Of a stretch of DNA of 64,000 nt, positions 24,798 to 42,805 are shown one piece after another. Every line of letters starts with the position of its first letter. Position 1 is the stretch's first letter. The position numbers and the translations under genes are program-made. A model generated the notes under the pieces. That model was not told where the DNA came from, searched no databases, and saw only the letters and a program-made list of their open reading frames with translations. The DNA is from Trichomonas vaginalis G3 (lineage: Eukaryota > Parabasalia > Trichomonadida > Trichomonadidae), in NCBI RefSeq assembly GCF_026262505.1, contig NC_067206.1, forward strand, positions 37,709,660 to 37,773,659, in the 5' to 3' direction.

Positions 24798-25709
24798 TTG
24801 TCTGATTTATCAACAGAAGAATTCCTACAAGGCGAATCATATTGGAAATCAATACCATCATCGACAAATCCATTCGTCAATCATATCAGTGGAAGTCTCT
24901 TCCAAAGCATCACGAACGAAGGTGTTATTCGCATCAATTCCGAAAATTCTATTTTAATCCTCGAACATGACACATTTAATACTATCACATCCAATCAGAA
25001 CGGTGGCTGCGTAATTTTTTAGTCCTGTCACTCAATTTATCAAAGAGATACTTGCGCTCATAAAGTTTATTCAAGTACAAAAGCCAAATTTAGCTATGTT
25101 AAAATATCTCAAGCCTTAGAAAACGTGGATTACAATTTTATGATATCGATAACTGATTGTACACCTGACCCTGTGTCTGACATATTTTGGATTGGAGGCG
25201 GGAAAACATCTCTTTCAAATTATAATTCCACAAACAATTATGCAAGTTTTTCTACAGCATTTTACTTTGGAAATTCTGTTGGCCAAGCAAATGCATCGTT
25301 TATCAATGTATTATCAGGAACTGCTACATATAGTTCTCTTGTCTACTCTGACTCTAATTGTATTTTAAAACATTCGAATTTTTATAATAATAAAGTTAAT
25401 GAGAAGACAGAATGCCTTTTGGCTGTACATGCATCAATTTTTGTTATAGATCATTGCGTTTTTGCTCAAAATTCTGCACAAATTTTCGCAAATAATAAAA
25501 TATCTGTTTTAAGTTGCTCGTTTTACGAAAATTCATTTAGCTCGACATATCCTTCTATTCCTTATAGCGGAACGCATAGCTTCACTGTAAATACTCAGTG
25601 CCATATGTGGAAACACGACGACTGCATCAAAAAGTATTCTTGTGTATCACAATATTTCACAATAAACTCATTTCTATTCTCATTCTCCATTTTCATTCTT
25701 TTTCTTTAA
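24798..25709 (+). pseudogene. Beta-helix-type surface protein, tandem copy 2 (disrupted near residue 74)
   Basis: It is nearly identical to copy 1. An extra A near 25013 and a missing G near 25026 compensate in frame but create an in-frame TAG at 25020-25022, splitting the frame into a 74-residue N-terminal part and a C-terminal part that is open to 25709. The downstream part correctly reads through the T5 run and ends in the same hydrophobic tail. Because copies 1 and 2 are broken at different homopolymers, each carries the intact version of the other's break. Either both are recent pseudogenes or these are residual base-calling errors. Confidence 0.65.
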
Positions 25710-25925
25710 CCTAAAAGTATAAATTTTCTCAATCTTTTGAATAAATCTACTTTTTTCCTAAAAGGCATTCTCCATAATTGGCAAGTTTTTTTGAATATGG
25801 CAAGGCAAACTTTGAGACAAAAGTTATCTTGTATGATGCATTGAATCAACCCTGAAAGTTTCGTGGCCAACAATTCATTCTAGTGAGGTGAAACATTCAT
25901 TCAAAGACCAAAAAAAAAGTTTTTT

Positions 25926-26029: not shown

Positions 26030-26638
26030 TTACCTAAATGAGTTACTATGACAGGAAACGTTTGGAATGAACATTGAATTGACTGCATAACAGAAGGATT
26101 TATATTCTACTGAACCTTTACTATTAACTCCTGAAATACCTGTGACATTAGCTATTTTTGACTCAACGTATAAACAATTACCATAACATACGTATGGAAC
26201 AGATTTCATCTCAATCGTTTTGTCAACACTTTTCAAAGGACATGTCATATGGTATGCTCCCAGAAGCAATTGAACTCTATGACTCATTCGTGTTATCTTA
26301 AACTCCTTCGCATAACTGAACTTCAAAACTCCTGCAATAAGTTTAACATTCATTAAGTTTTCTTCGTTCTCCTTGTTTATTGTAGTATTTATGAGCGCAT
26401 TTAACACTCCAGCTAATGTTTCCATCTTATATTCTACATTATTGTGAAATCTTATTTCGTGCTTCTTTCCATCTATTTCAAGCTCCATGAAATCTGTTTC
26501 ATCTGTTATAACGAATGAAGCGATAGTATTGAAGTCAACAACTCTGAAAGCAAGCGCTTCATTCTGAAGACCTAAGTTTGTTTGTAGCTTTACTGTCCCG
26601 TATTCGTTTGGGTCTGTACTTTGCAAATAGAACAACAT
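26030..26638 (-). CDS. Putative minor capsid (penton-like) protein 1
   Basis: This is an open frame of about 202 residues starting at ATG 26638 (MLFYLQS), preferred over the upstream ATG at 26671 because the latter overlaps the divergent fibre gene's start. Beta-rich segments alternate with a motif SHRVQLLLGAY near residue 131, which resembles the conserved 'LA-x-LLGF' block of Polinton/adenovirus-like penton proteins. It ends in FIPNVSCHSN just four bases from the assembly gap; the family usually continues further, so the 3' end may be truncated or the stop may be an end-of-contig error. It diverges from the fibre gene with almost no spacer. Assignment rests on pattern resemblance. Confidence 0.4.
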   Translation of the reverse strand: MLFYLQSTDPNEYGTVKLQTNLGLQNEALAFRVVDFNTIASFVITDETDFMELEIDGKKHEIRFHNNVEYKMETLAGVLNALINTTINKENEENLMNVKLIAGVLKFSYAKEFKITRMSHRVQLLLGAYHMTCPLKSVDKTIEMKSVPYVCYGNCLYVESKIANVTGISGVNSKGSVEYKSFCYAVNSMFIPNVSCHSNSFR

Positions 26639-26655
26639 TTTATTCTCATTAAAAT

Positions 26656-29600
26656 ATGAGTATTGCTGCATATGCGTATGAAGCTGACAGAGCTAAACGT
26701 TTATATTTTGGTCAATACTCTCTCACACTTACTGACAAATATATTGTTATTTCTGATGGAAATACCGAGAAATACATAACATGGAAGGACTATGAAAAGT
26801 TTGACCCTATTTTAACTCCATGCACTATGCCATTCATTGTAAATGGTGAAGTTGTCATGAAGAACGACACAACTGTTTATAGGTCTGTATATGAAGCGTT
26901 AGAATATATGTTGAATTATAATCCCGAAAGATTTGACCCAAGCACTACGTCATGTACAATGCCTTTTATTAAGGATGGTGAAATCGTAAGAGTTCCGAAT
27001 TCAACGGTTTACACAGCTGTTCAAAACAGTTTACAAAACATTTTAGCGAATATCTTTAATTCAGAAACTACAGAAATAAAATTACCATATATAACAGATG
27101 CTAAAGAAATTAAATCAAAAACGACAACATTATTTACGTCACTTAATGATTTAATGACTTATATCATTAATATTCCTGCACCAACTACAGCATTTGATCC
27201 AAACTCGACGGTTTGCAGTGTACCTTTCATAAAGTCGCAAACGGACTCTTTGAGTCCTGAAGGTCTTTCAGACCGAAGCGACCAGGGCGAAGCCCATGAC
27301 AGTTCATTAATTGTTTTAAGGGATTCAACAGTTAATGAATCATTAAAGGCGTCATTAATGAAAATCATTGATTTTAATTCATTCACGAATACATATAATT
27401 CATTCATTAATGTTTCATATGCTTCTAAAGAAGGTGAGCCAAAAACTATCGATAAAGCGGTGTATGAAATAAAAGCATCAACGACGAAATTGAATTCGTT
27501 AACTTTTGACGGTGATAGTTTCGTTAATGACATAACATCGGGGAAAACAATTTTAACGAAAGAATATTTAAAATCTCATGTTAGTGAGTTCGTTGAAATT
27601 GAAAAAGAAGGTGGAATTAAGTTCGATCCACTGAATTTCATTTTCAGCTTAGCGAATGCGGGTGTTAGTTTCGCTGAATGGACAACTATACAGAGTGAAA
27701 TAAATGCAATATGGACGTTTTTGGGGTCAAAAGCGGGAATGGGTGAGCTTGTAAATGCTGCAAGAACATTAGGTGAAACAGGAAATTTTGTAGATGGTTT
27801 TAAAAGACTTGTTTCAAATGTTTTAACAAACACAAAGAAATTATTTAGATATACCATACATAACGGACGGATTTTCGAACAGGTAGCAACAAACCCTCCG
27901 GTTATGGCTGCGTTGATGATGGTTAGAGATATAAAACCACGTAACGACGGGAACGAAGAACATGAACAACAGAGCCCAACGGGCTCAGAGCCACATAGTG
28001 GCGAGGATACTGGTCGGGTTATTCAAGACATTAAAAACGTGTATCCTGAAGTTATTGATTTATTTAGAGGAGTTAATGATTCAATTTCAAAACATTCTAT
28101 AACCCTCGATGAAGAGAATAAATTAACAGATTATATATTCGTCATTATTGCAGAATTAATGAAGAGAATAAATGAAAAAGGAATTGGTGATATCATTAAT
28201 GTCAGCGATGTAATGATGAAAAGAAATTTTGACTCATTATTTACAAAACCGAAAACAGAATATAGTCTTTATGACGTAATTACCGAATTAATGAAAAAGA
28301 TTAATGATAATAAGAGTTCTGGCGGAAGAGTTGAATTAGAAGTGAATGATGTTAATGAGAAATTAGCCGAAAAAGCAGATAAAAACCACGTTCATTATAT
28401 AACTTCAGACGAACAGATTATAACGGACTACCATGGATATTTAACACGAAGTGATGAAGCGAAGACAAAAAATGTTAATGAAAGAAGATATAAATACATT
28501 CGTGCTAAAGGTTATGACATAAGCTGTACTGTACAGTATGACACAGGTAAAGCACCAGAAGCATTTAGTTATAACGATGAAATTTATGCCTCTACTTTCT
28601 CTGTTAATGGTGTATTAGTTGAACCAAGATTTATGTTAAGAGTTAAGGCAAAAATAACGTTTGAAGATGCTATTAAAAGTAAAGCTGACAAAGTTGAACT
28701 TGACGCAACGAACAAAGTTTTGAAATCTCATAAACACAACATCTCCGATATAAATGAACTTCAAACTTCTTTAGACAGTAAAGCTGACAAGAACCATACA
28801 CATAAATCCTTCACTACTGTTAGAGCAGACGACATAATATTGAACTTTGACCTTGGTTCAAGTGCACCATTAGAAAATCCAAGTACAAGCGTAAAAGATA
28901 CTCTTAACAGTTTAGATAACAGTTGCAGGAACATTGAAAGTCATGCCAGAAACTTTGAAGCACATGAACTACCAGCAATGTTAGATAAGAAAGCAGACAA
29001 GAACCATACACATAAATCCTTCACAACTGTTGCTATAGAAAGTATTGAAGGAACGGTTGAAGAAACTGGTGGGGAGGGCGGAGCCCCGCCGCACGCGGCT
29101 GCATTATATTGTAAACCTCCTAACTTTCCACAAGGTTTAACATCGGATGACGACATAACGACGATGAGAAACATTAGATGTAAAGATGTTTATGTCATGA
29201 AGGATGAACATAATATTAAATTCACTGCTCAAGATTTATATGACAAGAAAGCAGACAAGAACCATACACATAAATCCTTCACTACTGTTAGAGCAGACGA
29301 CATAATATTGAACTTTGACCTTGGTTCAAGTGCACCTTTAGAGAATCCGAGTACAAGCGTAAAAGATACTCTTAACAATTTAGATAAGAGTTGCAGGAAT
29401 ACCGAAGATCATGCCAGAAACTTTGAAGCATATGAACTACCAGCAATGTTAGACAAGAAAGCAGATAAAACTTATGTGGATGCAGAACTAACAAAGAAAT
29501 TTTCGAAACCAGATACAATGACATTTACAACAGAAATTATAAATGGTGAACCAGCAACTCCATTTGAATTTGTTAGAGGTCTTCAACCAGATACTTTTGA

Positions 29601-30189
29601 ATTTTTCTTGGATAATTCTATTGAACTAACATTACATTATAAAAGTGGAACAAATGCAACATTTCATCCGGGAGATACATTCCAAATGGTATTTAATGAC
29701 ATAAGTTCTTTAGAATATGTTTATAGAGTTATGAGCATATATGATTTAATATATCCTATAGGAGCTGTTTATACGTCTATGAATCCAATAAATCCAAACA
29801 CTTTATTTGGTGGTAGATGGTATGAAATAGTTGACAGTTTTCCATTCTACACTAATACGCAGTCAATGAAGATGGGAGGTTCAAAGAAAATAGGTATTGA
29901 AAACCTTCCTTCACATATGCATAGGTTCAGTGGAAGAACATCTGTGGAAGGAAACCATTCACATTCAATAACAAAAAGAGGTTATACAAATCTTGCAGCG
30001 GGTTCGGATAGACAGGGAATGCATAGATATGATATCACAACTGACCCCAAAGATGTTAGCACAGGTATTTTCTGTGGAACTGCAGGAAATCATACACATG
30101 TTGTAGCTGGTATTACAGACCCAGCAGGTAATGGAAAAGATTATATGCCTCCTTATATAACAATGCACGCTTGGATACGAGTTGGTTAA
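26656..30189 (+). CDS. Phage-like tail-fibre/receptor-binding protein
   Basis: This 1177-residue protein has a modular fibre layout. Residues 49-200 hold four repeats of about 44 residues starting FDP-x-T/S-x-C-T/S-M/V-PFI (49, 93, a weak one near 137, about 181). A helical middle follows, then KADKNHTHKSFTTV repeats between residues 705 and 875, where one block is duplicated 468 bp apart (28781 and 29249). The C-terminal about 147 residues (from 1031, YPIGAVYTSMNPINP) form a phage tail-collar/short-tail-fibre tip with LFGGRWYEI, HMHRFSG, GNHSHSIT, GNHTHVV and a final PPYITMHAWIRVG. In T4-type fibres such His pairs bind metal along the trimer axis. Likely role: trimeric vertex fibre for host attachment. 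GC-rich hairpin cassettes interrupt it in frame at 27243-27295, 27972-28002 and 29076-29099. Confidence 0.85.
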   Translation: MSIAAYAYEADRAKRLYFGQYSLTLTDKYIVISDGNTEKYITWKDYEKFDPILTPCTMPFIVNGEVVMKNDTTVYRSVYEALEYMLNYNPERFDPSTTSCTMPFIKDGEIVRVPNSTVYTAVQNSLQNILANIFNSETTEIKLPYITDAKEIKSKTTTLFTSLNDLMTYIINIPAPTTAFDPNSTVCSVPFIKSQTDSLSPEGLSDRSDQGEAHDSSLIVLRDSTVNESLKASLMKIIDFNSFTNTYNSFINVSYASKEGEPKTIDKAVYEIKASTTKLNSLTFDGDSFVNDITSGKTILTKEYLKSHVSEFVEIEKEGGIKFDPLNFIFSLANAGVSFAEWTTIQSEINAIWTFLGSKAGMGELVNAARTLGETGNFVDGFKRLVSNVLTNTKKLFRYTIHNGRIFEQVATNPPVMAALMMVRDIKPRNDGNEEHEQQSPTGSEPHSGEDTGRVIQDIKNVYPEVIDLFRGVNDSISKHSITLDEENKLTDYIFVIIAELMKRINEKGIGDIINVSDVMMKRNFDSLFTKPKTEYSLYDVITELMKKINDNKSSGGRVELEVNDVNEKLAEKADKNHVHYITSDEQIITDYHGYLTRSDEAKTKNVNERRYKYIRAKGYDISCTVQYDTGKAPEAFSYNDEIYASTFSVNGVLVEPRFMLRVKAKITFEDAIKSKADKVELDATNKVLKSHKHNISDINELQTSLDSKADKNHTHKSFTTVRADDIILNFDLGSSAPLENPSTSVKDTLNSLDNSCRNIESHARNFEAHELPAMLDKKADKNHTHKSFTTVAIESIEGTVEETGGEGGAPPHAAALYCKPPNFPQGLTSDDDITTMRNIRCKDVYVMKDEHNIKFTAQDLYDKKADKNHTHKSFTTVRADDIILNFDLGSSAPLENPSTSVKDTLNNLDKSCRNTEDHARNFEAYELPAMLDKKADKTYVDAELTKKFSKPDTMTFTTEIINGEPATPFEFVRGLQPDTFEFFLDNSIELTLHYKSGTNATFHPGDTFQMVFNDISSLEYVYRVMSIYDLIYPIGAVYTSMNPINPNTLFGGRWYEIVDSFPFYTNTQSMKMGGSKKIGIENLPSHMHRFSGRTSVEGNHSHSITKRGYTNLAAGSDRQGMHRYDITTDPKDVSTGIFCGTAGNHTHVVAGITDPAGNGKDYMPPYITMHAWIRVG

Positions 30190-30208
30190 AATCTTTAACT
30201 TTACATAA

Positions 30209-31294
30209 ATGAGCTTGAAAGAAGTATTCGAACAACATCCATGGAGGTCATTTAAGAAGTTCAATGAAGCTGCAAAGAGTTCGGGATTTACTAACAGAGC
30301 TGAAGTGAAAAGGTTCTTTGACAAAAATGTTGTACATCAAACAAAAATAAATCCTTACGACTACTTTTTACCAATTTACTCCAACACTCCTGACGCATAC
30401 CAATTTGACACTCTCATTCAAAGCAGAAAAGGAGGACATAAACCATTCCTCATCTTCATAAATGTTAACACTCGTAAAGCATATGCGTATATAATGAGAA
30501 ATAAAGGAACTCATGAAGTGTTAAGAGTTTTACAAAAGTTTGTAGCAGAACATAGCCCAAGTATTTTAACATCAGACCAAGACGGTGCATACCTCAGCAA
30601 CGAAATCACAGAATTTCTCATTAAGCATAACATAACTCACTACACTACTGAAGACCATAACCATAACATACTCGGTATCATTAACCGCTTCATAAGGACT
30701 CTCAGAGATTTAAATCAAGAGCGAGACTTTACCGAAGAAACAATGAAACATTTTCTCGAAGTATATAATTCCTCAACACATTCTACAACAGGACATACAC
30801 CAAATTCAATGACACAACAACAAGAAGAAAAGTATATACAAAAGAAACGAAGCCAAACACAAAATATCAGAAATTCAACACAATTTACTCTCATTCCTGG
30901 TACAAAAGTTCGTGTAGTTCTTGACGACAAACCATTGACAAAGAAACGTTTAAGGTTAAGTCGAAATTATTATATCGTAGACTCTACGCAAGGTAATGGA
31001 TATCTTATAAAAGCTGCTGACGACTCCATAGCATTTTACCCTCGACATAAATTAGTCGAAAGTAGTAATGGCAAACTTGCTGAAACCATTGACGAAGCAA
31101 AGCGAGGAGTGGTTATTGAAATACTTGACTATAACACAAACGATGACACTTATAAAGTAAGATATGAAGGAGGCGTTGAAGATGTTATACCATCTAAGAA
31201 CTTGAGAGAATCTAAACCAACTCATCTGGGACCATTAGAGCGGGAGTACTGGAAAGATAAAAACATGCCAGAAAGAATAAGAAAATTCTTCTAA
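30209..31294 (+). CDS. Maverick integrase (retroviral-type, DD35N)
   Basis: This 361-residue integrase has an N-terminal helical region, an RNase-H-fold core and a C-terminal SH3/chromo-like part (DDTYKVRYEGGVEDVIPSKNL, near residues 303-325). Core positions visible are D67 (YQFDTL) and D123 (LTSDQDGAY). Exactly 35 residues later, where the catalytic Glu is expected (the block GIINRFIRTLRD), the residue is Asn159 (AAC, 30683-30685). The polypeptide is otherwise intact. It is 19 bp downstream of the fibre gene. A CTTTAAC motif about 20 bases before ATG is shared with the ORF at 40739. It would insert the element DNA and duplicate the target site. Activity with Asn159 is doubtful unless the lineage uses another acidic residue. 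Confidence 0.9.
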   Translation: MSLKEVFEQHPWRSFKKFNEAAKSSGFTNRAEVKRFFDKNVVHQTKINPYDYFLPIYSNTPDAYQFDTLIQSRKGGHKPFLIFINVNTRKAYAYIMRNKGTHEVLRVLQKFVAEHSPSILTSDQDGAYLSNEITEFLIKHNITHYTTEDHNHNILGIINRFIRTLRDLNQERDFTEETMKHFLEVYNSSTHSTTGHTPNSMTQQQEEKYIQKKRSQTQNIRNSTQFTLIPGTKVRVVLDDKPLTKKRLRLSRNYYIVDSTQGNGYLIKAADDSIAFYPRHKLVESSNGKLAETIDEAKRGVVIEILDYNTNDDTYKVRYEGGVEDVIPSKNLRESKPTHLGPLEREYWKDKNMPERIRKFF

Positions 31295-31333
31295 ACTTTT
31301 TCGTTGGATGTAAATCAGACAAAAATATAATTT

Positions 31334-31384
31334 AGGTGAAGAGGTGAGATTTCACCTGTTTTCTCACCTCTTTTTTCACCTCTT
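31334..31384. terminator. Palindrome cluster between convergent genes (site a)
   Basis: GGTGAGATTTCACC is flanked by repeats of GAGGTGA/TCACCTC and lies exactly between the 3' ends of the integrase (31294) and the opposing ORF (31376). Five similar clusters exist in the element, mostly beside 3' ends. It could form a hairpin and act as a bidirectional transcription end or boundary. The function is inference. Confidence 0.45.
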
Positions 31385-31870
31385 GAACTTTTTATAACAT
31401 TCGGTCATAACTTCATCAATTTCATTTAAATCACGATTTAAAAACTCATTGACTTCATCTTCAACCGTGTCATCTTGTAATAAGAATATTTTCTTTAGTT
31501 TCATGTCAACATCCCGAACAGCACAAAGGATAAAATCATATTCATTTCTTCCGTTAAACATACTTTTTCTTTCTCGTTCATCGTTAAATAAATTATTGAA
31601 AATATAAACAGCGGTGTAAAAGTTATGTACTGTGTTAAATGTTGAAGCTTCACCTATTTTAGATTTTAGGATTCTTTTAGTAAGTAAATTGTTATCGTTC
31701 TTTCTCTTTTCCTTATCGTTCATGTCGAATCTGTCGAACCACATATCCTGTATTTCATCGAATTTACGAACTATAGAATCCGTCATTTCCCTGGTTAATG
31801 AGGGGTAATCATTATTAATTTTTTCATATAATTTGTCCATATGATTTTCATCGACGTTTCCGGAAAGCAT
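31376..31870 (-). CDS. Maverick hypothetical protein (164 residues)
   Basis: This acidic, helical protein (MLSGNVDENHMDKLYEKI at the start, FLNRDLNEIDEVMTECYKKF near the end) has no recognised domain. It starts at ATG 31870 after a T-rich tract (tatatttttgctttaatta), in line with other genes of the element. It is convergent with the integrase and in tandem with the next minus-strand ORF. Confidence 0.65.
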   Translation of the reverse strand: MLSGNVDENHMDKLYEKINNDYPSLTREMTDSIVRKFDEIQDMWFDRFDMNDKEKRKNDNNLLTKRILKSKIGEASTFNTVHNFYTAVYIFNNLFNDERERKSMFNGRNEYDFILCAVRDVDMKLKKIFLLQDDTVEDEVNEFLNRDLNEIDEVMTECYKKFKR

Positions 31871-31894
31871 TTAATTAAAGCAAAAATATATTAT

Positions 31895-31943
31895 AGGTGA
31901 AGAGGTGAGATGTCACCCGTTTTCTCACCTGTTTTCTCACCCC
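31895..31943. terminator. Palindrome cluster (site b)
   Basis: GGTGAGATGTCACC with adjacent TCTCACCTG repeats lies 7 bp past the stop of the minus-strand ORF at 31950-32915 and upstream of the ORF starting at 31870. Same family as site a. Confidence 0.4.
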
Positions 31944-31949
31944 AGTTTT

Positions 31950-32915
31950 TCACAAGCGTTTTACATGAATTGTACGATGTATATTTGAAATCCTAAACAA
32001 TTTCGTAGCTTCTATTTCTTCTGTCAGTATGTCAAAAGTTTTAACAATGCCGAAAGTTTCTTTATATTTCTTCTTGACGTCAGATAGAAGGAAATCGTCA
32101 GCAGTTGGATAGTTTTTGTTCAGAAATGCTAACATGTCCATTTTATTTTCTGCTGGCTTTTCTGCTTCTTTCTTTAAGTCTGCATAGTCGTTTCGCATTC
32201 TTTCTATCTCTTTGACGGAGTAGTTATATTTCCTAATTGCTGCTTTACATTTAGAACATTGCGGATTCATTTTTGCGTTATATTCTGAAACCTTACCTGC
32301 TAAAACAACTAAGGCGTCAATGGTTTTCTTTAACTCAAAAGCAGTTGGTCTTATCTGTTCGTTCCATATTTTACCTCTTCTATCTTTATCTCTTATCTGC
32401 CATACACATTCAGCAACTAACGAAACAAAGTTATCGTAGGTCTTAAACTCCCCGGATTTATATATGTCAGAAACATTCTTATATACCATGTCGCAATCTT
32501 TGTCCATAACCTTATGGTTGCAATGAAATCCTAGAAACTCATAGTTTACCTTTCGAATGAACTTCTTTATTTCTACTGAGTCAGTTGGTTTCACTTCTAT
32601 TTCATCGAATTCAGGAATAGTTAGTTTTTGATGCTGAATTTCAGGTAGTTTAGGTAAATGGTCAATAATGTCCTGCATTTCATAAAGATACTGTTCATTT
32701 GTTTCATCTTTCGCACTACAGTCTAAATTACTTGTTAAAAGTTCTTGCTTTATCTTCTGGATTTTTGTTTCGAAAGTATATGAAGAAGGAATGAAGCTTT
32801 TCATCTCTACTAACATAGATGTTGGATTCATGACTAACGAGTTTGGTGAAGTTGTTGTGGACAGAGTCCCGCCGTTCGCGGCTTGAATTGTTGTTGTGCC
32901 GATTGTTGAAATCAT
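31950..32915 (-). CDS. Maverick hypothetical protein (321 residues)
   Basis: The N-terminal about 60 residues are Ser/Thr/Asn-rich. The middle is helical with Cys/His pairs (CSKCKAA near residue 220, FHCNHK near 150) that might bind zinc but form no known finger. The C-terminus is Lys-rich. A GC-rich double mini-hairpin (32859-32882: GGAC-AGA-GTCC and GCCG-TTCG-CGGC) lies in frame in the Ala-Asn-Gly-Gly stretch near residue 15. ATG 32915 is preceded by a T-rich tract. Function unknown. Confidence 0.65.
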   Translation of the reverse strand: MISTIGTTTIQAANGGTLSTTTSPNSLVMNPTSMLVEMKSFIPSSYTFETKIQKIKQELLTSNLDCSAKDETNEQYLYEMQDIIDHLPKLPEIQHQKLTIPEFDEIEVKPTDSVEIKKFIRKVNYEFLGFHCNHKVMDKDCDMVYKNVSDIYKSGEFKTYDNFVSLVAECVWQIRDKDRRGKIWNEQIRPTAFELKKTIDALVVLAGKVSEYNAKMNPQCSKCKAAIRKYNYSVKEIERMRNDYADLKKEAEKPAENKMDMLAFLNKNYPTADDFLLSDVKKKYKETFGIVKTFDILTEEIEATKLFRISNIHRTIHVKRL

Positions 32916-32997
32916 ATCTTTACATACAAAATAAAAAAATAAATAAAAATAAAACTAACGTTATTTTTCTATCTTAAGGAAATTCATGAAAATTCAT

Positions 32998-33052
32998 GAG
33001 GTGAGGGTGAGAAATTAGGTGAAAAAAGAGGTGACATCTCACCTCTTCACCT
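32998..33052. terminator. Palindrome cluster (site c)
   Basis: It contains GGTGACATCTCACC with flanking GGTGAGGGTGAGAAATTAGGTGA and CTCTTCACCT. It is the same family as sites a and b, but here in the non-coding region upstream of the ORF at 32915. Confidence 0.4.
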
Positions 33053-33078
33053 ATAATATATTTTTGGTCATTTACACT

Positions 33079-33153
33079 CATTTACGAAGAAGTTATGACA
33101 AAGCATTTACGAAGAAGTTATGACAAAGCATTTACGAAGAAGTTATGACAAAG
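33079..33153 (+). repeat. Three 25-bp direct repeats
   Basis: Three perfect consecutive copies of catttacgaagaagttatgacaaag lie between palindrome clusters c and d. Iterated short repeats of this type can be protein-binding sites; a related doublet (23 bp, gaagtcacgacaacattaacgaa) occurs at 34870-34915 beside site e. Confidence 0.9.
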
Positions 33154-33159
33154 TCACGA

Positions 33160-33207
33160 GGGTGAAAAAAGAGGTGAGAAAACAGGTGACATCTCACCTC
33201 TTCACCT
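33160..33207. terminator. Palindrome cluster (site d)
   Basis: It contains GGTGACATCTCACC preceded by GGTGAAAAAAGAGGTGAGAAAACA. It is almost the same as site c and separated from it by the 25-bp repeats. Confidence 0.4.
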
Positions 33208-33317
33208 AAATTATATTTTAGGTCAAAGCTTCCACGAGAGAAAAGATTCCTCATTCGCTAAGGATTCCAAAAATGAAAAAATCATTGATTTCGGCTGAGA
33301 AAAAACAGCAAAACCCT

Positions 33318-33382
33318 TCTTCCACGGGAACAAAGAAATAAAGAAGAAATAAAGTAAATTTTTTATTTATTCCCGTGGAAGA
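33318..33382. repeat. Inverted repeat, 13-bp perfect arms
   Basis: Arms TCTTCCACGGGAA (33318-33330) and TTCCCGTGGAAGA (33370-33382) are perfectly complementary with a 39-nt A-rich loop. A related CTTCCACGAGAG lies at 33229-33240. It may be a structured RNA element or cruciform; it is downstream of the tRNA-like sequence when read on the minus strand. Confidence 0.85.
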
Positions 33383-33447
33383 TAGAGCACTTTTATGACA
33401 CTTTTTATTCACGACAAACAAGACAAATAAAGAAAATAAGAAAATAC

Positions 33448-33520
33448 GGCGCTGTCGCGGTTCGAACCACAGACCTTGACCCCTCCATAACACCACCTTA
33501 GACCACTGTGCTACGTAGCC
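33448..33520 (-). ncRNA. tRNA-like sequence with A and B boxes
   Basis: On the minus strand, TAGCACAGTGGT (33502-33513) fits a Pol III A box and GGTTCGAACC (33459-33468) fits a B box. They are 33 bp apart, and runs of TTTT follow at 33431-33447. The overall span of about 73 nt is tRNA-sized. A 5-bp T stem can be drawn (TGTGG/CCGCG with a 6-nt loop) and a 3-bp D stem, but I cannot form a proper anticodon stem or acceptor stem. It is therefore a decayed tRNA, a tRNA-derived element, or a Pol III transcript of the Maverick rather than a functional tRNA. Confidence 0.35.
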
Positions 33521-33561
33521 TGTCGACATAAGATTTTATAAATTGCATATTTGACGTAAAT

Positions 33562-33936
33562 TTATTTCCATCTGGCTTCCCACTGCATAAGATATTCATA
33601 CGTGTTTGTAAGACATTCATTAAACTTCTTTTCTATTGCATCTAATCTTGCGTTATTTTTTTCAATAACTTGTCTGTATTCTTCATCATCTCCAGCAGTG
33701 TTTGGGTCTTCACGTTTAAAATATTCATTGTTAACCAATTTTTTATCTACAAATTTTATTAGTGTTTGATTCACTTCGTTATGATAACGGTCATATTCTT
33801 TCAATACGTAAGTGAAGACAAAATGCGTCGTACCTTCAATCTTAAAGCTTAAAGAACTTTCAACACAGTTTTGAGGGTCTGTCAGTGCGTCAATGAGATA
33901 GTATTCGAAGTCAGTCAATAATCTTTTTAAAGTCAT
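33562..33936 (-). CDS. Maverick hypothetical protein (124 residues)
   Basis: This small helical, charged protein (FEYYLIDAL near the start; a C-terminal coiled stretch NNARLDAIEKKFNECLTNTY) has no recognised family. ATG 33936 is 2 nt from an inverted TTTTATCCTGTATG motif, whose mirror copy precedes the divergent KilA-N gene. Confidence 0.6.
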   Translation of the reverse strand: MTLKRLLTDFEYYLIDALTDPQNCVESSLSFKIEGTTHFVFTYVLKEYDRYHNEVNQTLIKFVDKKLVNNEYFKREDPNTAGDDEEYRQVIEKNNARLDAIEKKFNECLTNTYEYLMQWEARWK

Positions 33937-33938
33937 TT

Positions 33939-34032
33939 CATACAGGATAAAATTTAATGTTGTGAAGAAATAGTGTTTATCTCAGAAAAAATAAAGTTAG
34001 TTTTTATTTTATTTATTTTTTTATCCTGTATG
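33939..34032. promoter_or_regulatory. Divergent promoter pair with inverted TTTTATCCTGTATG
   Basis: The 14-bp motif TTTTATCCTGTATG occurs as a perfect inverted pair: 33939-33952 (minus orientation, 2 nt before ATG 33936) and 34019-34032 (plus, 11 nt before ATG 34044). Each copy points at its own gene. Shorter relatives precede other genes of the element: TTTTTATCCG before 40396, TTTTTATCTG before 41201, TTTTTTATCTA before 40693. The host TCA initiator is not apparent here. A core-promoter role is inference. Confidence 0.55.
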
Positions 34033-34043
34033 TAAGAACAGTA

Positions 34044-34871
34044 ATGTCAACATTAGAGAACACAACAACTGCTATCGTTCATGAAGCCATAAATGAAGAA
34101 TACGAATACATACAATATAACAAACAATTGAGACTCATTCGTTCAGTCAAAGATGATATGTATCAAATGCAAAGTATAATGAACGCTCTTCGTTCTACAA
34201 AGCAAGCATATCATTGGTTTGAAAACCAACAGGCAAAAGAACTTTTAGAAGAATTTCCTCATATGATTGCTTCCCTCGGAAAACCGAGGGAAGAGATTCC
34301 GTACGAAAATCGCAAGAATTTGGCACCTGGTTTGAAAGGTTATTATGTTCATAGACTTTTAGTAAATGCTGTAGCAATGTGGGCTTCACCTCGTTATGCT
34401 TGTTATATTTTCATGATGTTAGATGAACTATATAAAGCAGAACGTGGAGAGATGGAAAAGAAACTTCAAGCAAAAGATGAAGTCATTGAATCCAAAGACA
34501 AAAGCATACAGAAAAGAATACCACGTTCAGTACCAAAAGGAAAGGAAAAGAGTTATAAGTATATGATTTATACTGAAGAGTTGGAGAAAGAAGAAGATAG
34601 AGATATGGTTATGTTGCATTTAGTCAGAAGAAACAACAAAAGCTTTTACGACCTTGCTAAAATATATAAATCTGACAGAAACTGGTTCTATCGTGAAAAC
34701 TTACCGATTTCAATGACACCGAATGAGCAAATAAAAGAAATTGTCAAAAATACTCTTCCTCAAACACACTATGACATCAAAGGTTGCACAATACTTACCT
34801 TCAAAGAAGACTTAACATTACTGAAGGAAAAAATAACAGAATATTTCGATAACTTCAAAGAGGAAGAATGA
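34044..34871 (+). CDS. KilA-N domain protein
   Basis: This 275-residue protein has a KilA-N DNA-binding domain at about residues 45-128. It shows the W/F-rich TKQAYHWFENQQAKELLEE block and the diagnostic LKGYYVHRLLVNAVAMWASP (the 'G-YVHP-L---A-W-SP' signature) followed by YACYIFMMLDEL. A coiled Lys/Glu linker (130-160) leads to a C-terminal domain like the partner domain of viral Bro/MSV199-type proteins (KYMIYTEEL ... SDRNWFYRENLP). KilA-N proteins are common in large DNA viruses, phages and trichomonad mobile DNA, probably as regulators or nucleic-acid-binding factors. A perfect 9-bp hairpin (34271-34292) sits inside the domain coding region at ASLGKPREE. Confidence 0.85.
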   Translation: MSTLENTTTAIVHEAINEEYEYIQYNKQLRLIRSVKDDMYQMQSIMNALRSTKQAYHWFENQQAKELLEEFPHMIASLGKPREEIPYENRKNLAPGLKGYYVHRLLVNAVAMWASPRYACYIFMMLDELYKAERGEMEKKLQAKDEVIESKDKSIQKRIPRSVPKGKEKSYKYMIYTEELEKEEDRDMVMLHLVRRNNKSFYDLAKIYKSDRNWFYRENLPISMTPNEQIKEIVKNTLPQTHYDIKGCTILTFKEDLTLLKEKITEYFDNFKEEE

Positions 34872-34923
34872 AGTCACGACAACATTAACGAAGAAGTCAC
34901 GACAACATTAACGAAGAGAGAAT

Positions 34924-34959
34924 GAGGTGAAAAAACAGGTGATATCTCACCTCTTCACC
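34924..34959. terminator. Palindrome cluster between convergent genes (site e)
   Basis: GGTGATATCTCACC with flanking GAGGTGA and CTTCACC lies between the 3' ends of the KilA-N gene (34871) and the opposing ORF (34976). The 23-bp doublet at 34870-34915 precedes it. Confidence 0.45.
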
Positions 34960-34975
34960 AAAAATATATTTTTGG

Positions 34976-35449
34976 TTAAATAGCTTCAGGGTCAATTTCT
35001 TCAACCATTTCACTTCCTTCGTCAATGTCAATTGAAGCTTCTTCAACCTTTGGTAAGAACTTTTGTATAACATCTTTGTTCGTTATTGTCTTCAGAGATG
35101 AAGGATAATATTTCACAGATGTTTCACCCTTCTTATATTCTTTCTGTTCGGAAAGATTCATAGCAATACTGAAGAAGTCAATGTTGGAGTTCTTTATGAC
35201 AGTATAGTGTGTATCTTTGACATTCACGAAGAAACCCTTTTGTTTCAAAACTACTGCTAACTCTTGTGAAGTATAACGTTTGCGGTCAATGACGATAGCT
35301 AATGGTCTGACATACTGACCAAACTTAGATTCTTTCACAAACTTCTTGTTAAAGATAACATTAACGTTTGAAGCATTATTGAACTCATTCTTGATGGCAG
35401 TAGCGAGAGCATTGTATGAAAAGAACTTGCAATCTTGCATGTGTTTCAT
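34976..35449 (-). CDS. Maverick hypothetical protein (157 residues)
   Basis: The N-terminal part is mixed alpha/beta (YNALATAIKNEFNN, RPLAIVIDRKRYTSQELAVVL); the last 25 residues are acidic (VEEASIDIDEGSEMVEE). No family is recognised. ATG 35449 follows aatatttttattttA. It is divergent from the polymerase gene with a 92-bp AT-rich spacer and convergent with the KilA-N gene. Confidence 0.65.
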   Translation of the reverse strand: MKHMQDCKFFSYNALATAIKNEFNNASNVNVIFNKKFVKESKFGQYVRPLAIVIDRKRYTSQELAVVLKQKGFFVNVKDTHYTVIKNSNIDFFSIAMNLSEQKEYKKGETSVKYYPSSLKTITNKDVIQKFLPKVEEASIDIDEGSEMVEEIDPEAI

Positions 35450-35541
35450 TAAAATAAAAATATTAAATTATTTTGAAAAATAACTTAAAAAAAATCTAAT
35501 CTAATTTTTTCAAAAAATATTTTTTTTATTTCCTACTAAAG

Positions 35542-38500
35542 ATGTATCGGAAGTTGTCTAAGTTAGAACACTCGGAAATAAAACAACTTCTTACAGAAGC
35601 TAATATAGATGTTGCAAAGCATTACGCAACAAACAAAAAAGCACTCGCTGACTTCATTAAAGACTATAATGGTGCAATAAGTTATGATAGAATTCATGAG
35701 TTCATAAAGCCGCAACGCGGCGAGGACGAAGTCCATGCAAGAGCATTTCCTTTAAATGACATTGCTATTGACTTATATCATAGACGTTCAGTACCTCATG
35801 AAGTAAGAAGAGAGATGTTTGACATAACAAATGCAAACGTTGGTGAAACAAGAAGAGCTGTACCTCATGAAGTAAGAAGAGAGATGTTTGACATAACAAA
35901 TGCAAACGTTGGTGAAACACGAAAGAGAGATGACACACTGAAACAACAGAGAAGAGAGATGTTTAAAAGTGCTATAGAACAAGTTCGCAAAGCTAACGAT
36001 GTCATTCGTTCCATTGACGACAAACCAAAAGAAGGTGAGAGATGGTTAAAGAAAGATGAAGAGAATAGGAAGAGAAATGTGAAGTCAGGCAATAGACTCA
36101 TTGACTTTAACATCGAAGCTTTAGATGAACCAAACAGAGACTACTTACACAAACATTTCGGTAAGGTTTTCATGAGACTCTTAGAGAAAATTAAAATAAA
36201 CTCGCAACAGAGATGGATGGTATGTTATAAACTTGGTGGAAAGTATGAATGTTCTACGTTAAACCTCAATAATATTGGAACATTACTACATCAGCTCTTG
36301 AAGGAGAACTTTATATCAGAGATAGAAGCAAATGCTGCAGGTATTGTTGAAATGCACTATGACTTCTTCTTGACAAACATAAAGAATCTTACCGAAATAA
36401 AGATGTATGATTTAACAGAATATGAAGGCTTAACGATGTCAGATGTAAAGAAAGGCAAACCAAAAAAGAGACCATATAGAGATGAAAGCACACTGACAAA
36501 TGACCAGAAAGCCATTTTGGAAGCTCTTAAGCAAACAGGAAACCCAGCACTTATAGAAAGCTTTTGGAAAGATAATGGTGAAAAGAAGTTTTATAAGAAG
36601 AGAAGCGGTCAGTTCTGGAAGTATCTTTGCACATTACCTATAAATCTTGAACGCTACCAAATCTTCAATGAACTGAACAAAAGAACTGCAACACTTATGA
36701 CAGAGGACAATTGTTTCGTTTATGCTTGCATTCAGGCTGGAGTAAATGAAGAAACTATTGACCACATGAGAGAAGTCATTCGTGTTAGAGACTTTCCTCA
36801 AAGTAAAGTACAAGAAATTTCCGATTCAACAGGTATAGCATTTAATGTTACCATTGGTTATTTCAATGACTCAAGACATAATGAAATAAAGAGATATATA
36901 CCAAAAGAATGCGAAACTGTTAGAACTATTGACTTACTTCTTGTTGAAGACCACTACATGCTAAATGAAAGATTACCAATGACAACATACTTCATTCGAA
37001 ACTATATAGAAATCTTGAAGGAGTGTGGTGGAATGAACATTGAGAAACAGATGAAGATTTATACAAAGAGAGAAGATAAATATGTAGTTCGTTATGATAG
37101 AACAACACCGCTATGGGATGTTATGAAAACATTGTGGGAGTGCAAATATTTCGAACCTATTTCTTATGGAGAACTTTTCACATATACTACTGACTTATAT
37201 AAACAGAACCTTGCACCATTTAAAGATTTGACATATGCTCCAAAGTATTGTGTACAACTGAAGAAGAAAGCAGAGTCAAAAGAAGTAAATAAAGCTAAAT
37301 GTAAATTCATTCCTGAGCACGTTTTCTTTGCTGACTTTGAGTGTAGCACAGACGGCTTTCATAAAGCTTTTAACATCTGTTATGACAGTGAAGATGGTTC
37401 AGTGAGTGAAAGCATTTGGGGTCAAAACTGTGCAACAGAATTTTTGGAAAGACTTCCTGACAAGAGTTTAATATATTTCCACAACCTCAGTTATGACATA
37501 AACTTCATCTTAAGACACATGACAGAAGTGAAAGGAACTCCCATCATTAAAGGTTCACGAACAATGCAAATAACTGGTTTATATAAAGGACGGGCAATTA
37601 TTATAAAAGACTCTTACAGTGTTATAAATAAGAAGCTTAAACTATTTCCTGCTATGTTTAACTTACAAACAGGACCGAAAGAAGTATTTCCATATAACTA
37701 CTACAGCAGTGTTTTGTTAGCAAATGACAACAGAACTGGTGTCATTTCTGAAGCATGTAAGTTTATCCATGATGCAGATACATTCATGAAAACATAGATT
37801 CCATCAAAGGTTGCAGAATAGATGAAAACCACTTCGACTTAGAAAAATATAGCACGTTTTACTGCAAACAAGATGTAAGAATTTTAAGAGAAGGTTTTGT
37901 AAAGTTCCGCAATGACTTATTGAAAGAGTTTGATTTAAACGTTTATGACTACGTTAGTATTTGTTCTATTGCTAACAAATTGTTTGAGAACAGAGTATAC
38001 TTCCCGAATGGAAATCTTTATGACCTCTCAAATAAACCAAGAGAATTTATTTCGAGATGCATTCAAGGTGGAAGATGTATGTTGTCAGATAACATGAAAC
38101 AAAAGAGCAAAAAGAAACTCATTGCTGACTTCGACACTGTTTCATTATATCCTTCAGCTATAGCAAGACTTTATACTTTAGAAGGTATTCCAAAAGTATT
38201 GAAGGAAGAAATGTTAAGCACAGAGTATCTCATGAGACATTTATTCGATGATGACCAAAAGGAACCCATTGGTGAAAAGTTTATGTCTGGCTTCTTTGTT
38301 CTCATTAAGATAACAGAGATTGGTATACCCAGACACTTTCATTTAATAGTTTGCGACCCTGAACTAAATCCAGAACTTAACGTTCCAAGAAGTTCAAACA
38401 CTTGCTGTCTCATGTATGTTGACCATATAACATTACAAGACCTCATAAAATATCAAGGTGTCAAATGTGAAGTGTTGCAAGGATACTATTACGATGGAAA

Positions 38501-39391
38501 CAGAGATATGAGAATAAGAGATGAAGTAAAGAAGTTGTTTGAGTTAAGGTTAAAGTATAAGAAAGAAGGAAACCCCTTACAAGAAATTATAAAACTCATT
38601 CTGAACAGCATTTATGGCAAAACTATTCTATCTCCTATTGAGTCAAAAATAACCATAGTAAATGACAAAGATGCTATAAGATATGCTATAAGAAATTACA
38701 ACCATATAGTGAAGTTCGAAGGTTTTGGATGGTTCAGATAAAACTATTTTCAAGCTAACGAAAAGCATTTGCAGACACTTTAACTTCTGTCCACTTGGTG
38801 TTAATATTCTGTCTATGTCAAAAACGTATTATGAATGAAGTATTCTGTACTGCTGAAGATATGGGTCTTCAAATCTTTTACCAGGATACCGACAGTATGC
38901 ACTTATATAATGAAGACATACCAAAGCTTGCAGCAGAGTTTAAGAAGAGATATGGTCGCGAACTTATAGGAAAGAACCTTGGTCAATTTCATAGCGACTT
39001 TGCAGAAATAACACCTGGAAAACAAAGTTTAGCTTATAAAAGTATTTTCTGTGGAAAGAAGACCTACATAGACTTACTCACTAACGATTTAAATGAAGTT
39101 GCATTTCACTGCAGAATGAAAGGCGTGAAGCAAGATGTTATTGCTTTAACCGCTAATGAAATGTTTCCTGAAGCTATACAATGCTATTACAATGAAGATA
39201 AGAACATTCACATACCTGTTGGAACATATGACAAAGACTCTGAGTTCAGTTTAATGAAACTTTACAAAGCACTTTATGATGGTCAAGAGATTGCATTCGA
39301 CTTATGTAAGTCATGTCAACCTTGCTTTGCTGAAAAGTTCAACTTTTCAATAACGACTAAAACAAGCTTTATTCGTAAGTTGAAGTTCTGA
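35542..39391 (+). pseudogene. Protein-primed DNA polymerase B (three frameshifts)
   Basis: The locus spans about 1283 codons, the expected size for a Maverick PolB. Exo I (FADFECS, D and E codons at 37333 and 37339) and Exo II (FHNLSYDINF, 37477-37506) are in the first frame. Motif A (DFDTVSLYPS, 38127-38156) and motif B (KLILNSIYGK, 38591-38620) are in the second. Motif C (YQDTDSMHL, near 38880-38905) and the KTY block are in the last. Frame changes occur at the A-run near 37787-37792, near 38720-38737, and at A5 near 38819-38825. An upstream region (residues about 385-475) resembles an OTU-type Cys/His module. A 69-bp in-frame tandem duplication lies at 35791-35928, and a hairpin cassette at 35709-35734. 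All catalytic motifs remain, so base errors or very recent inactivation are likely. Confidence 0.92.
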
Positions 39392-39505
39392 GGTCATGGG
39401 CTTCGCCCTTGCCGCTAGCGGCTTATTTTTGTCAGCAATGAGGTCATGAATGAGGTCATGGGCTTCGCCCTTGCCGCTAGCGGCTTATTTTTGTCAGCAA
39501 TGAGG
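39389..39505. repeat. Duplicated GC-rich hairpin cassette (62-bp period)
   Basis: Two copies (39389-39450 and from 39451) each contain GGGC-TTC-GCCC and GCCGC-TA-GCGGC hairpins followed by ttatttttgtcagcaatgaggtcat. They lie between the polymerase stop and the convergent capsid-like gene. Read on the minus strand, they match the cassettes found inside coding sequences at 27285, 35709 and 40906. Confidence 0.85.
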
Positions 39506-39538
39506 TCATTCGTGATAAAAATAAAGCTAGCGTAGATT

Positions 39539-40396
39539 TTACAATACTGCGATGGTAGAGTTTAAGAGTTGTGCTTCAATGTAGAGACAGTCCTTATGGT
39601 CTGGAGGTAAGAACACTGGACATTTATGGTCATGAGTGGAGAACATGTCTATCCAAAACTCACGATTGAAGCCAGTTAATTTATAGTATTTAGGGTTAGG
39701 AAGTGGTGAAGTTCTTGTATGACCAATGAACTCATTTTCAACGCCTTTGGCTATATTAGAGTAAAGTATTGCTTGCTTTCTATCCCAAATGCCAGGTGTT
39801 ACAATCTTTGAAAATTCATTTTTCCTCGGAAGCATTGCATCATAATTGAAAACATTCTTAAAATCATCACTTGGTTCGGAGATTTGAAATCTTATACGTA
39901 ATGGATTTTCTTTCTTTTTAGCGACTTCATTGAATGGTGAGAATACAATGAATTGACAGTCATGTGTTCCATCTTCATTTTCATTAAATTCATAATGAAA
40001 GTCTATAAGTTGTGGCTGACTACCTTCTTCCTTCAGTTGTGCAAGAAACTCACGTAAAGGCTGTAAAGTTTGTACTTCAATATTGAACTTTTTCTCGAAC
40101 ATCTCATTAAATGAAATCATACATTGCAACAATGTTGTATCGTCTTTAAAGTATTTGTATATGTGAATGTTTTGGGCGCTTAAAGACTGTTCGTCATTTT
40201 CTATCTCGACTTGAAGTATAAAGTCAACCTTTCTGAAAGCACGTGTTATATACATAGATGTTATGCCAATGTACTTCTCTTCATTTATGTTCACAATCCA
40301 GTCTGTTGGAAACTTAAACGTTACTCTGTTCCCCTTTATTTTGACGTCAGGGTTTTCACTACTGAACGCAACAGATAAAGGTATTTGTCTATACAT
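39539..40396 (-). CDS. Putative minor capsid protein 2
   Basis: This 285-residue, beta-rich protein has segments VTFKFPTDWIVNINEEKYIG (residues about 25-44), KYFKDDTTLLQCMISFNEMF and a C-terminal ILYSNIAKGVENEFIGHTR and GFNREFWIDMF. Layout, size and position next to the major capsid candidate fit the single-jelly-roll minor capsid (penton) class of Polintons, though no diagnostic residue can be named. ATG 40396 follows ggtttatttttatccgaatta, a good copy of the element's promoter-like motif. It is convergent with the polymerase. Confidence 0.45.
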   Translation of the reverse strand: MYRQIPLSVAFSSENPDVKIKGNRVTFKFPTDWIVNINEEKYIGITSMYITRAFRKVDFILQVEIENDEQSLSAQNIHIYKYFKDDTTLLQCMISFNEMFEKKFNIEVQTLQPLREFLAQLKEEGSQPQLIDFHYEFNENEDGTHDCQFIVFSPFNEVAKKKENPLRIRFQISEPSDDFKNVFNYDAMLPRKNEFSKIVTPGIWDRKQAILYSNIAKGVENEFIGHTRTSPLPNPKYYKLTGFNREFWIDMFSTHDHKCPVFLPPDHKDCLYIEAQLLNSTIAVL

Positions 40397-40420
40397 TTAA
40401 TTCGGATAAAAATAAACCAT

Positions 40421-40693
40421 TTACTCTTTCTTTGCTTCAGCTTCCTTTGCTTTTTGTTCTTCCTTTGCTTTTGCTTCTTCTCTAGCTTTCTTTGCCAGCA
40501 AACGTGGGTTCTTCTGTCTTCCAGCAGCTAATGCAGCTAGTTGTTTTTCACTAAGTTTTCTCTTTGGTCTCTCTGGCTTTTGTTCTGGTTTTTGTTCCTT
40601 CAGTTCGGATAAAATTTGTTCACGAATTTCTTTCTTCAATGCTTCAACATCTATGACCCCTTGGGTCTTGTCCGTAGGATTTGACTGAGTCAT
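40421..40693 (-). CDS. Small charged Maverick protein (90 residues)
   Basis: It has an acidic N-terminal half, then PKRKLSEKQLAALAAGRQKN and an Ala/Lys/Glu-rich C-terminal helix. The LSEKQLAALAAGR block recurs in small basic proteins of many DNA viruses and mobile elements. A DNA-binding or condensing role is a guess. ATG 40693 follows gttttttatctacagtcaa. It is 24 bp upstream of, and co-oriented with, the minor capsid 2 gene, and divergent from the next ORF. Confidence 0.65.
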   Translation of the reverse strand: MTQSNPTDKTQGVIDVEALKKEIREQILSELKEQKPEQKPERPKRKLSEKQLAALAAGRQKNPRLLAKKAREEAKAKEEQKAKEAEAKKE

Positions 40694-40738
40694 TTGACTG
40701 TAGATAAAAAACTAAATTAAAACTTTAACCGATGTAAA

Positions 40739-41173
40739 ATGAGCTTGTCAAAATCAGAACGAGAGTCTATTATATTAAATGACGCCAGAGGAATACAACA
40801 TCCTTTCTATTATGTAAGTCAGAGTAAAGATGGTAAAATATATGTAAGAAAAAGAAAGGTTCCATTAGCGAATACAGAGAGCGACAACATTAAGGTGCAT
40901 GGCAAGGGCGAAGCCCACGAAGCCCATATAAAACCTTCTGTACAAACTGAGCCACCAATAGAACAAGAAGAAAAGAAGCCAGATGTACTTTCAATAACGA
41001 ACCAAGAGCTTATTGCAAAGTTCGTGAATTTCATTGAAAAGCAAACCGAGTCAAAGAACCCTGACCCACCAGTGAAAGAAGTTGAGACAAAAGAGAATGT
41101 ACAGTTCATTGAAAATGTCAAGAAACAACTTCCACCACGAATACCAAGAAGAAGAGTGAGAATAATGAAGTAA
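40739..41173 (+). CDS. Maverick hypothetical protein (144 residues)
   Basis: The N-terminal 40 residues resemble the short 'FYYVSQSKDGKIYVRKRKVP' module also seen, in weaker form, at the start of the 78-residue ORF at 43313 (FYIHTMKDGRVQFRKIKQP). This suggests two related virion or DNA-associated proteins. The middle is Glu/Pro-rich and the C-terminus basic (PPRIPRRRVRIMK). A GGGCGAAGCCC mini-hairpin (40906-40916) codes for the GKGEAHEAH stretch. A CTTTAAC motif precedes ATG as for the integrase. Confidence 0.65.
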   Translation: MSLSKSERESIILNDARGIQHPFYYVSQSKDGKIYVRKRKVPLANTESDNIKVHGKGEAHEAHIKPSVQTEPPIEQEEKKPDVLSITNQELIAKFVNFIEKQTESKNPDPPVKEVETKENVQFIENVKKQLPPRIPRRRVRIMK

Positions 41174-41200
41174 ATAGATATTTTTATCTGAAGTAAATAC

Positions 41201-42775: not shown

Positions 42776-42805
42776 AGGATGAACGTTTATTTTTAAAGCT
42801 TATAA

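Follow-up and report, generated by a model that had tools for sequence, protein, structure and literature searches.

Coding palindromes that lie in frame within genes are known from Rickettsia, from Wolbachia and from a single archaeon (PMC2996958; here and below, statements on cited work refer to the portions of each source that were available). Fungal mitochondria carry double-hairpin elements (DHEs), in which two adjoining hairpins rich in G and C (GC-rich) are optional among relatives and are thought to be mobile. These elements are found in Allomyces, chytrids and Schizosaccharomyces octosporus, and those of Allomyces are reported to be without flanking duplication (PMC2800124, PMC10085805). 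DHEs in three Schizosaccharomyces species are located between genes or in ribosomal RNA genes (PMC10085805). The GC clusters of yeast mitochondria also form GC-rich hairpins, with fast turnover, merging and shuffling, and the abundant ones carry AG or ACT flanking repeats and reside mostly between genes (PMC4478555). In the current study, we analyzed a stretch of 64,000 nucleotides (nt) from Trichomonas vaginalis G3 (contig NC_067206.1, positions 37,709,660 to 37,773,659; ‘the window’ refers to this whole stretch), in which an earlier note had drawn attention to small GC-rich hairpins recurring within genes. The element carrying these hairpins is a Maverick, a virus-like transposon present in T. 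vaginalis in ~5,000 copies that total 73 Mb (PMC7845603). We conclude, with a probability of roughly 0.93, that the paired hairpins, hereafter called cassettes, are a family of tiny mobile GC-rich double-hairpin inserts in T. vaginalis Mavericks.

The cassettes resemble Rickettsia palindromic elements (RPEs), as well as the coding palindromes of Wolbachia and Methanocaldococcus, in being in-frame palindromic inserts in unrelated protein genes (PMC10969869, PMC2996958). This likeness had been suggested in the earlier note, and the small in-frame insertions reported below support it. However, RPEs are bacterial and ~150 bp in length (PMC10969869), whereas the cassettes span 24-63 nt, include nested double hairpins and occupy a eukaryote’s virus-like transposon. 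With DHEs, the cassettes share both the two adjoining GC-rich hairpins and an optional presence without flanking duplication, but they are found in Mavericks on nuclear contigs of tens of megabases rather than in mitochondria, and they lie in frame in protein genes. The resemblance to RPEs and DHEs is one of features, not of compared sequences. The GC-rich hairpins of yeast GC clusters are likewise similar, except that cassette junctions carry neither AG or ACT repeats nor any shared flanking repeat, and many cassettes are in genes. The cassettes also differ from miniature inverted-repeat transposable elements, for which target-site duplication is a criterion, because at most 0-2 nt could be duplicated at their clean junctions. 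Palindromic amphipathic repeat coding elements (PARCELs) were considered and excluded, as these are 25-residue tandem repeats rather than single inserts (PMC2996958). Our literature search, which lay mostly outside subscription papers, found inserts of this kind reported neither for Trichomonas nor for Mavericks in the portions of sources available.

Paired hairpins at filled and empty sites

Hairpin pairs were defined by perfect stems of at least 4 bp with at least 75% GC, loops of 0-5 nt and a linker of 0-5 nt, and 20 block-wise dinucleotide shuffles of the 64-kb window served as controls. The window holds six such pairs, whereas the shuffles average 0.3 and never exceed 2, and thus the possibility that any sequence of equal composition is just as rich in them can be set aside. 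Stems of at least 5 bp number 17 (4.05 ± 2.5 in shuffles) and hairpins of all kinds 65 (49.7 ± 8.4 in shuffles); the excess over shuffles therefore consists of pairs and long stems. All six pairs fall within positions 26030-45170, which correspond to the Maverick, and none is present in the remaining 45 kb. Each hairpin located by the earlier note reads exactly as given there.

If the cassettes are mobile, copies of the same Maverick stretch should exist both with and without them. We compared such copies. Because the loci (denoted by L numbers) were mostly chosen for carrying cassette patterns, the filled counts that follow are not frequencies. Three cassettes reside in the 1177-residue fibre-like open reading frame (ORF; phage tail repeat, Gp10_C; 26656..30189, plus strand). 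The first (fibre site 1; 27234..27295, plus strand) is a 62-nt compound structure in which an outer GTCGC/GCGAC stem encloses a nested double hairpin and is followed by the linker CA and the hairpin GGGC-GAA-GCCC. The earlier note had described a triplet of hairpins at 27243-27295; those hairpins are real, but they are parts of this larger unit. The insertion amounts to 63 nt (21 codons) and is filled in 11 of 12 copies (with the window counted), one of which (L010) is two bases shorter, while the remaining copy (L011) is cleanly empty and reads ATAAATGACAG. Among homologous proteins (P numbers), P0001 carries the insert and P0002, P0004-P0007 and P0011 are without it; the site is outside the coverage of P0003 and P0008-P0010. 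Fibre site 2 (27972..28002, plus strand; GAGCCC-AAC-GGGCTC AGA GCCAC-ATA-GTGGC) is a 33-nt insertion that is filled in 10 of 12 copies and empty in L009 and L011. Fibre site 3 (29076..29099, minus strand) is a 24-nt double hairpin, reversed relative to the gene, that constitutes an insertion of exactly 24 nt in four of five copies. The fifth, L024, is empty, and no target base is duplicated in the window form.

A further 24-nt double hairpin (32859..32882, minus strand) is found shortly after the DUF3839 ORF begins (31950..32915, minus strand), sense to that gene. Three of eight copies are filled. Among the five copies without the cassette, the junction is exact in L011 and L020, a 3-nt difference is seen in L009 and L025, and the alignment of L016 is ambiguous. 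The first part of the type-B polymerase ORF (35542..37797, plus strand) carries a 26-nt double hairpin (35709..35734, plus strand), which is a 27-nt (nine-codon) insertion as judged from proteins. P0012, P0013, P0014 and P0018, relatives from T. vaginalis, are without the nine residues, and P0015 and P0016 carry an insert at this position. The cassette maps to a stretch (residues 58-87) that the fold model predicts with low confidence, with block means near 28; as the overall predicted template modeling score is 0.36, this offers only a hint that the region is a linker.

Both states were also observed in other Maverick genes. A second family of type-B polymerases (PolB) carries a cassette of 27 nt where three relatives are empty. 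The loop of this cassette contains a 36-nt nested unit at 10 loci that is missing at five. In L016, another gene holds a 36-nt cassette at a site that is empty in five relatives. A second small ORF differs by the nested unit between L016 and L019 on the one hand and L022 and L024 on the other. A pattern written for both states of the PolB site has 205 + 123 matches genome-wide. Among 100 matches listed, 72 distinct places were recognized, 66 of them empty and six filled; this pattern covers one flank variant and inserts of at most 30 nt, and therefore filled sites of the other flank variant are uncounted.

Sites between genes behave similarly. Two 25-nt double hairpins (GCCGCTAGCGGC AA GGGCGAAGCCC) occupy the first and second copies of a 62-nt tandem repeat (39398..39422 and 39460..39484, both minus strand). 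The 25-nt insert is exact, with clean empty copies in L033 (compared with L018) and in L029, L031 and L053 (compared with L035, L043 and L047). In total, intergenic places with both states involve inserts of 25, 25 and 31 nt, plus a fourth (L033) of ambiguous length. An indel scan conducted independently of hairpins gave a consistent picture: in 674 alignments, 581 well-flanked gaps of 12-150 nt were recorded, which fell into 56 groups. On reading, 13 of these groups were classed as cassettes (GC 0.45-0.92), and the remainder are mostly AT-rich or tandem-repeat changes.

The earlier note had called for alignments of this kind. Maverick ORFs without the hairpins exist, contrary to the alternative that the same hairpins always occupy the same sites, and clean junctions are evident with at most 0-2 nt of target duplication. 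Its suggestion of mobile elements is largely borne out by the filled and empty sites, except for two single hairpins that it had included in the family. The hairpin in the KilA-N gene (34271-34292) is present in all six copies, including the window, that align up to it, once with a mismatch and once a base shorter; a seventh copy, L045, is more distantly related and differs in sequence at this site, and no clean empty copy was seen among the seven. For the hairpin in a 144-residue ORF (40906-40916), four of five other copies have an imperfect version (GGGTGAAGTCC) and the remaining one has an altered sequence. Both were removed from the family, given that they are retained in close copies or are imperfect in relatives.

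Cassette architecture, junctions and reading frame

The basic unit comprises hairpin A, with a stem that is mostly GCCGC/GCGGC, a linker of 1-5 nt and hairpin B, with a stem of 4-6 bp and often a C-GNA-G loop. Units were split by script for 11 of 13 cassettes and by eye for the intergenic one and that of L033. Examples are GCCGC-AAC-GCGGC GA GGAC-GAA-GTCC in the polymerase gene, GCCGC-TA-GCGGC AA GGGC-GAA-GCCC between genes, GCCGC-GT-GCGGC G GGGC-TCC-GCCC at fibre site 3 and GCCAC-TAT-GTGGC TCT GAGCCC-GTT-GGGCTC at fibre site 2. Stem covariation, as noticed earlier, is real for the first hairpin (GCCGC/GCGGC, GTCGC/GCGAC, GCCAC/GTGGC) and for the second (GGAC/GTCC, GGGC/GCCC, GGTC/GACC, GACCC/GGGTC, GAGCCC/GGGCTC).

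A unit is 24-33 nt in length; with a second double hairpin in loop A, the length rises to ~61-63 nt. At fibre site 1, the nested unit within the outer hairpin loop is C-GGACTC-TTT-GAGTCC-TGAA-GGTCT-TTC-AGACC-GAA (27242..27277, plus strand; 36 nt). This same unit, in one form lacking a base or ending in AAA, is found within the loop of no fewer than six distinct outer cassettes. It is read in a single frame in three proteins unrelated to one another, namely the fibre protein, the second PolB and a DUF5906/VapE-like helicase. A GNA triloop closed by a C-G pair is present on one strand in eight of the 13 folded cassettes (12 distinct sequences), and 13 of 14 folded as DNA at z ≤ -2.0 relative to mononucleotide shuffles.

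At the junctions, filled and empty copies differ by the hairpin unit plus 0-3 nt, and the first hairpin usually follows an A, in many cases that of ATAAA. Gaps can slide by 0-2 nt at clean junctions, which therefore sets an upper bound on any target duplication; the value is 3 nt in L009, an altered copy of fibre site 3.

The nine genic places with both states, of which the window polymerase is known from proteins only, have inserts of 63, 33, 24, 24, 27, 27, 36, 36 and 36 nt. All nine are multiples of three, as opposed to none of the clear intergenic inserts. The naive chance of this outcome is one-third to the ninth power, or ~5 in 100,000. We infer that, if insertion is blind, frame is under selection, such that genes keep only stop-free inserts that are multiples of three. 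Damaged copies depart from this rule at fibre site 1 (L010), in L016 (35 rather than 36 nt) and in the polymerase (L032).

Six cassettes read from A to B in ORFs share one frame (polymerase, PolB, L041, L044, fibre site 1 and the helicase of L006), and that of the DUF3839 cassette differs. The 26-nt cassette of the polymerase even recurs unchanged in a small ORF with no relation to it (L044), and both copies read KPQRGEDEVH. The proposal that the fold, and not the peptide, is conserved is consequently half right: the stems covary, but genic inserts stay in frame and six genic sites use one frame. Relative to genes, cassettes are found in either orientation.

With regard to the direction of change, the site is covered by 30 PolB homologues, and 29 of them are without the insert, including two from T. 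vaginalis. The exception is P0036, a foreign PolB of 80% identity that carries a different insert at exactly the cassette site; this may be a hot spot that received another insertion, possibly in another trichomonad. Relatives of the window polymerase at 65-74% identity are without the cassette. The fibre protein has 11 homologues and the named ones are all from T. vaginalis, and thus the direction is based mainly on the two polymerases. Insertion rather than loss would seem to be the usual direction, with some loss as well, because homologues are mostly without inserts and identical cassettes appear at unrelated sites.

Routes of insertion and competing explanations

The GCGAAGC sequence, with its C-GNA-G loop, is an unusually stable DNA mini-hairpin motif. 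Repetitive extragenic palindromic (REP) sequences and IS200-IS605 elements are hairpin-defined units that use short targets and generate no target duplication, and the cassettes resemble these systems in working, as units delimited by hairpins. Maverick polymerases are of the protein-primed type and would expose single strands. Strand-displacement replication, which is predicted for Mavericks, could thus make single-stranded DNA available, and cassettes might be copied into it as hairpins while the element replicates. Inside genes, selection would then keep those inserts that are multiples of three bases and are free of stops. We favor hairpin copying of this type because long duplications are lacking, filler is small, units are defined by hairpins, units nest in loops and C-GNA-G loops are common. 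The odds that the cassettes spread via a single-strand route appear to be even, and the full explanation, combining mobile in-frame inserts with hairpin copying into single-stranded Maverick DNA, seems to us similarly balanced.

The frequency of C-GNA-G loops, a motif of DNA mini-hairpins, and the occurrence of both orientations relative to genes are not readily reconciled with a route in which a structured hairpin RNA enters Maverick DNA by ligation or reverse transcription. We regard this route as unlikely, even though it would produce the same mobile inserts, fits with the lack of long target duplications and would make stems covary as they do in RNA; RNA-mediated movement has also been suggested for the fungal mitochondrial analogues (PMC2800124, PMC4478555). 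To a similar degree, we doubt that an endonuclease cuts Maverick DNA and that hairpin ends or fragments are captured during repair. A putative enzyme for this process is an HNH-like stretch in the second PolB, recognized by eye, and both the 0-3 extra bases at junctions, which resemble end joining, and the short, A-rich insertion sites are consistent with it. However, clean sites hold whole double hairpins from few sequence families rather than random DNA, and no recognition sequence is evident beyond the A-rich flank.

Other explanations do not invoke mobility. The earlier note had raised packaging, replication or RNA-level signals, and the stable folds and the recurrence of positions in many copies could be read in this way. 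We consider selected signals very improbable, since near-identical copies may be empty, as is the case for one flank variant of the PolB site at 66 of the 72 places among the matches listed, and since cassettes occupy intergenic positions as well as genes that are unrelated to one another. Slimmer still is the chance that the hairpins are ancestral coding sequence removed from empty copies by hairpin-driven deletion. The partial forms at one PolB-family site are in its favor, but inserts are missing from nearly all PolB homologues, from P0011 for the fibre and from P0012-P0014 and P0018 for the polymerase, and clean empty sites show no scars. Moreover, identical cassettes at unrelated sites are inexplicable by the common descent of each site. 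An equally slim chance attaches to local synthesis of palindromes by polymerase fold-back (stem-loop extension), without any mobile family. Perfect short stems would be expected from such a process, and Pol theta has been described as carrying out stem-loop extension with templated insertion (PMC11292364), but the recurrence of the same few sequences at unrelated sites is not predicted by local synthesis.

Several observations weigh against a family of mobile inserts, or at least narrow what can be claimed for it. Movement appears to be the best account of differences among copies, from which it is deduced, and filled frequencies are biased because loci were mostly fetched for carrying the patterns. 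Independent insertions are probably far fewer than the copies, given that recombination can spread states among Mavericks. At the polymerase site, all 13 DNA copies are filled, and no empty DNA copy was seen among them. Loss does occur, as evident by a site ~180 nt past the first cassette of the second PolB family that exhibits partial forms of 21-63 nt, and by one cassette variant that has lost most of its nested unit. The GNA loop is missing from five of 13 cassettes, and fibre site 3 folds no better than its shuffles (z -0.4). A genome search for Y1_Tnp (PF01797), the transposase domain whose presence defines REP and IS200-IS605 systems, gave 0 matches; this search was positive in five of 14 control genomes and sought no other enzyme. 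Finally, non-Maverick sequence was sampled in the window’s 45 kb and in one 211-base stretch.

Should the mobile-insert explanation be correct, both known traits, the coding palindrome and the mobile double hairpin, would be joined in eukaryotic virus-like transposons. We tentatively propose, while leaning against it at present, that the cassettes form an ultra-small mobile class (down to 24 nt) whose movement takes the form of very stable mini-hairpins of single-stranded DNA, copied while protein-primed replication proceeds, and whose units enter one another’s loops and supply viral proteins with peptides of 8-21 codons; if true, this class would represent protein-coding mobile palindromes in a eukaryote. 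Insertion of this type would give virus-like structural and replication proteins a way to gain short in-frame peptides, and cassettes would account for part of the minor variation in length seen across Maverick proteins of T. vaginalis. The thousands of Maverick copies also provide filled and empty sites in abundance for the long-open question of how units too small to code, and without clear target duplication, are spread. Mini-hairpin DNA has separately been put to use in aptamers, according to the portions of sources available.

Genomic spread and neighboring features

In the 180.85-Mb genome that contains the window, one double-hairpin pattern has 1423 exact matches versus 0 for its reversed control, and GGACTCTTTGAGTCC has 258 versus 0. 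The first 38 loci extracted around such matches (30 for the double-hairpin pattern and 8 for GGACTCTTTGAGTCC) are all Maverick-type sequence, assigned by protein match for 32, by shared DNA for L006, L041 and L044, and by the flanks of L041 for L049, L054 and L055. These loci represent about a dozen distinct sites in the first part of one contig, which makes for a strong sample, short of a census. A looser pattern, GGNCGNAGNCC, has 3853 genome matches versus 233 in its reversed control, and its arms are complementary in all but two of 100 matches listed. This list includes another hairpin family, with a GCA loop in 25 of the 100 matches listed (99 of which entered a hand recount), and L080 proved to be a lone hairpin. 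The total was therefore rejected as a count of cassettes. L080 itself (C1:59653-59863) contains a single GGGGC-GCA-GCCCC hairpin and has stops in all six frames.

The pattern GCCGCNNNGCGGCNNGGNCGNAGNCC was found in 21 stretches in IMG/VR, all of 56-74% GC and 13 of them without a perfect second stem; occurrence in viral contigs was rejected on taking these as chance matches. A protein-based scan of viral contigs for relatives of the polymerase found none.

The Maverick in the window encodes the fibre-like protein, an rve integrase, the DUF3839 and KilA-N proteins and the type-B polymerase, and proteins from this region have matches in T. vaginalis G3. The polymerase is divided over two ORFs, 35542-37797 and 37920-38741, the second of which carries DNA_pol_B_2. 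In the second PolB family, the site with partial forms (L002, L013, L023, L026, L038 and L050) has apparently undergone stepwise collapse, with all scored pairs differing by multiples of three.

Between the Maverick genes, a palindrome of the form GGTGAAGAGGTGAGAT..TCACCTC, located beside a AAATATATTTTTGG-like stretch, is repeated at 31308-31380, 31869-31941, 33003-33070, 33158-33225, 34911-34978 and 43563-43630. In L034 and L046, an identical 31-nt cassette is placed in opposite arms of this palindrome.

To the right of the Maverick, host genes for Ras, v-SNARE, LCAT and an epimerase start near position 45869. To its left, three GGAGCC-loop-GGCTCC hairpins (13498-13792) lie in an ORF on the minus strand (13451-13819). 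Tandem repeats are present at 22569-25758, 53941-54618 and 57105-57598, with periods of ~1445, ~113 and ~45 nt, respectively.

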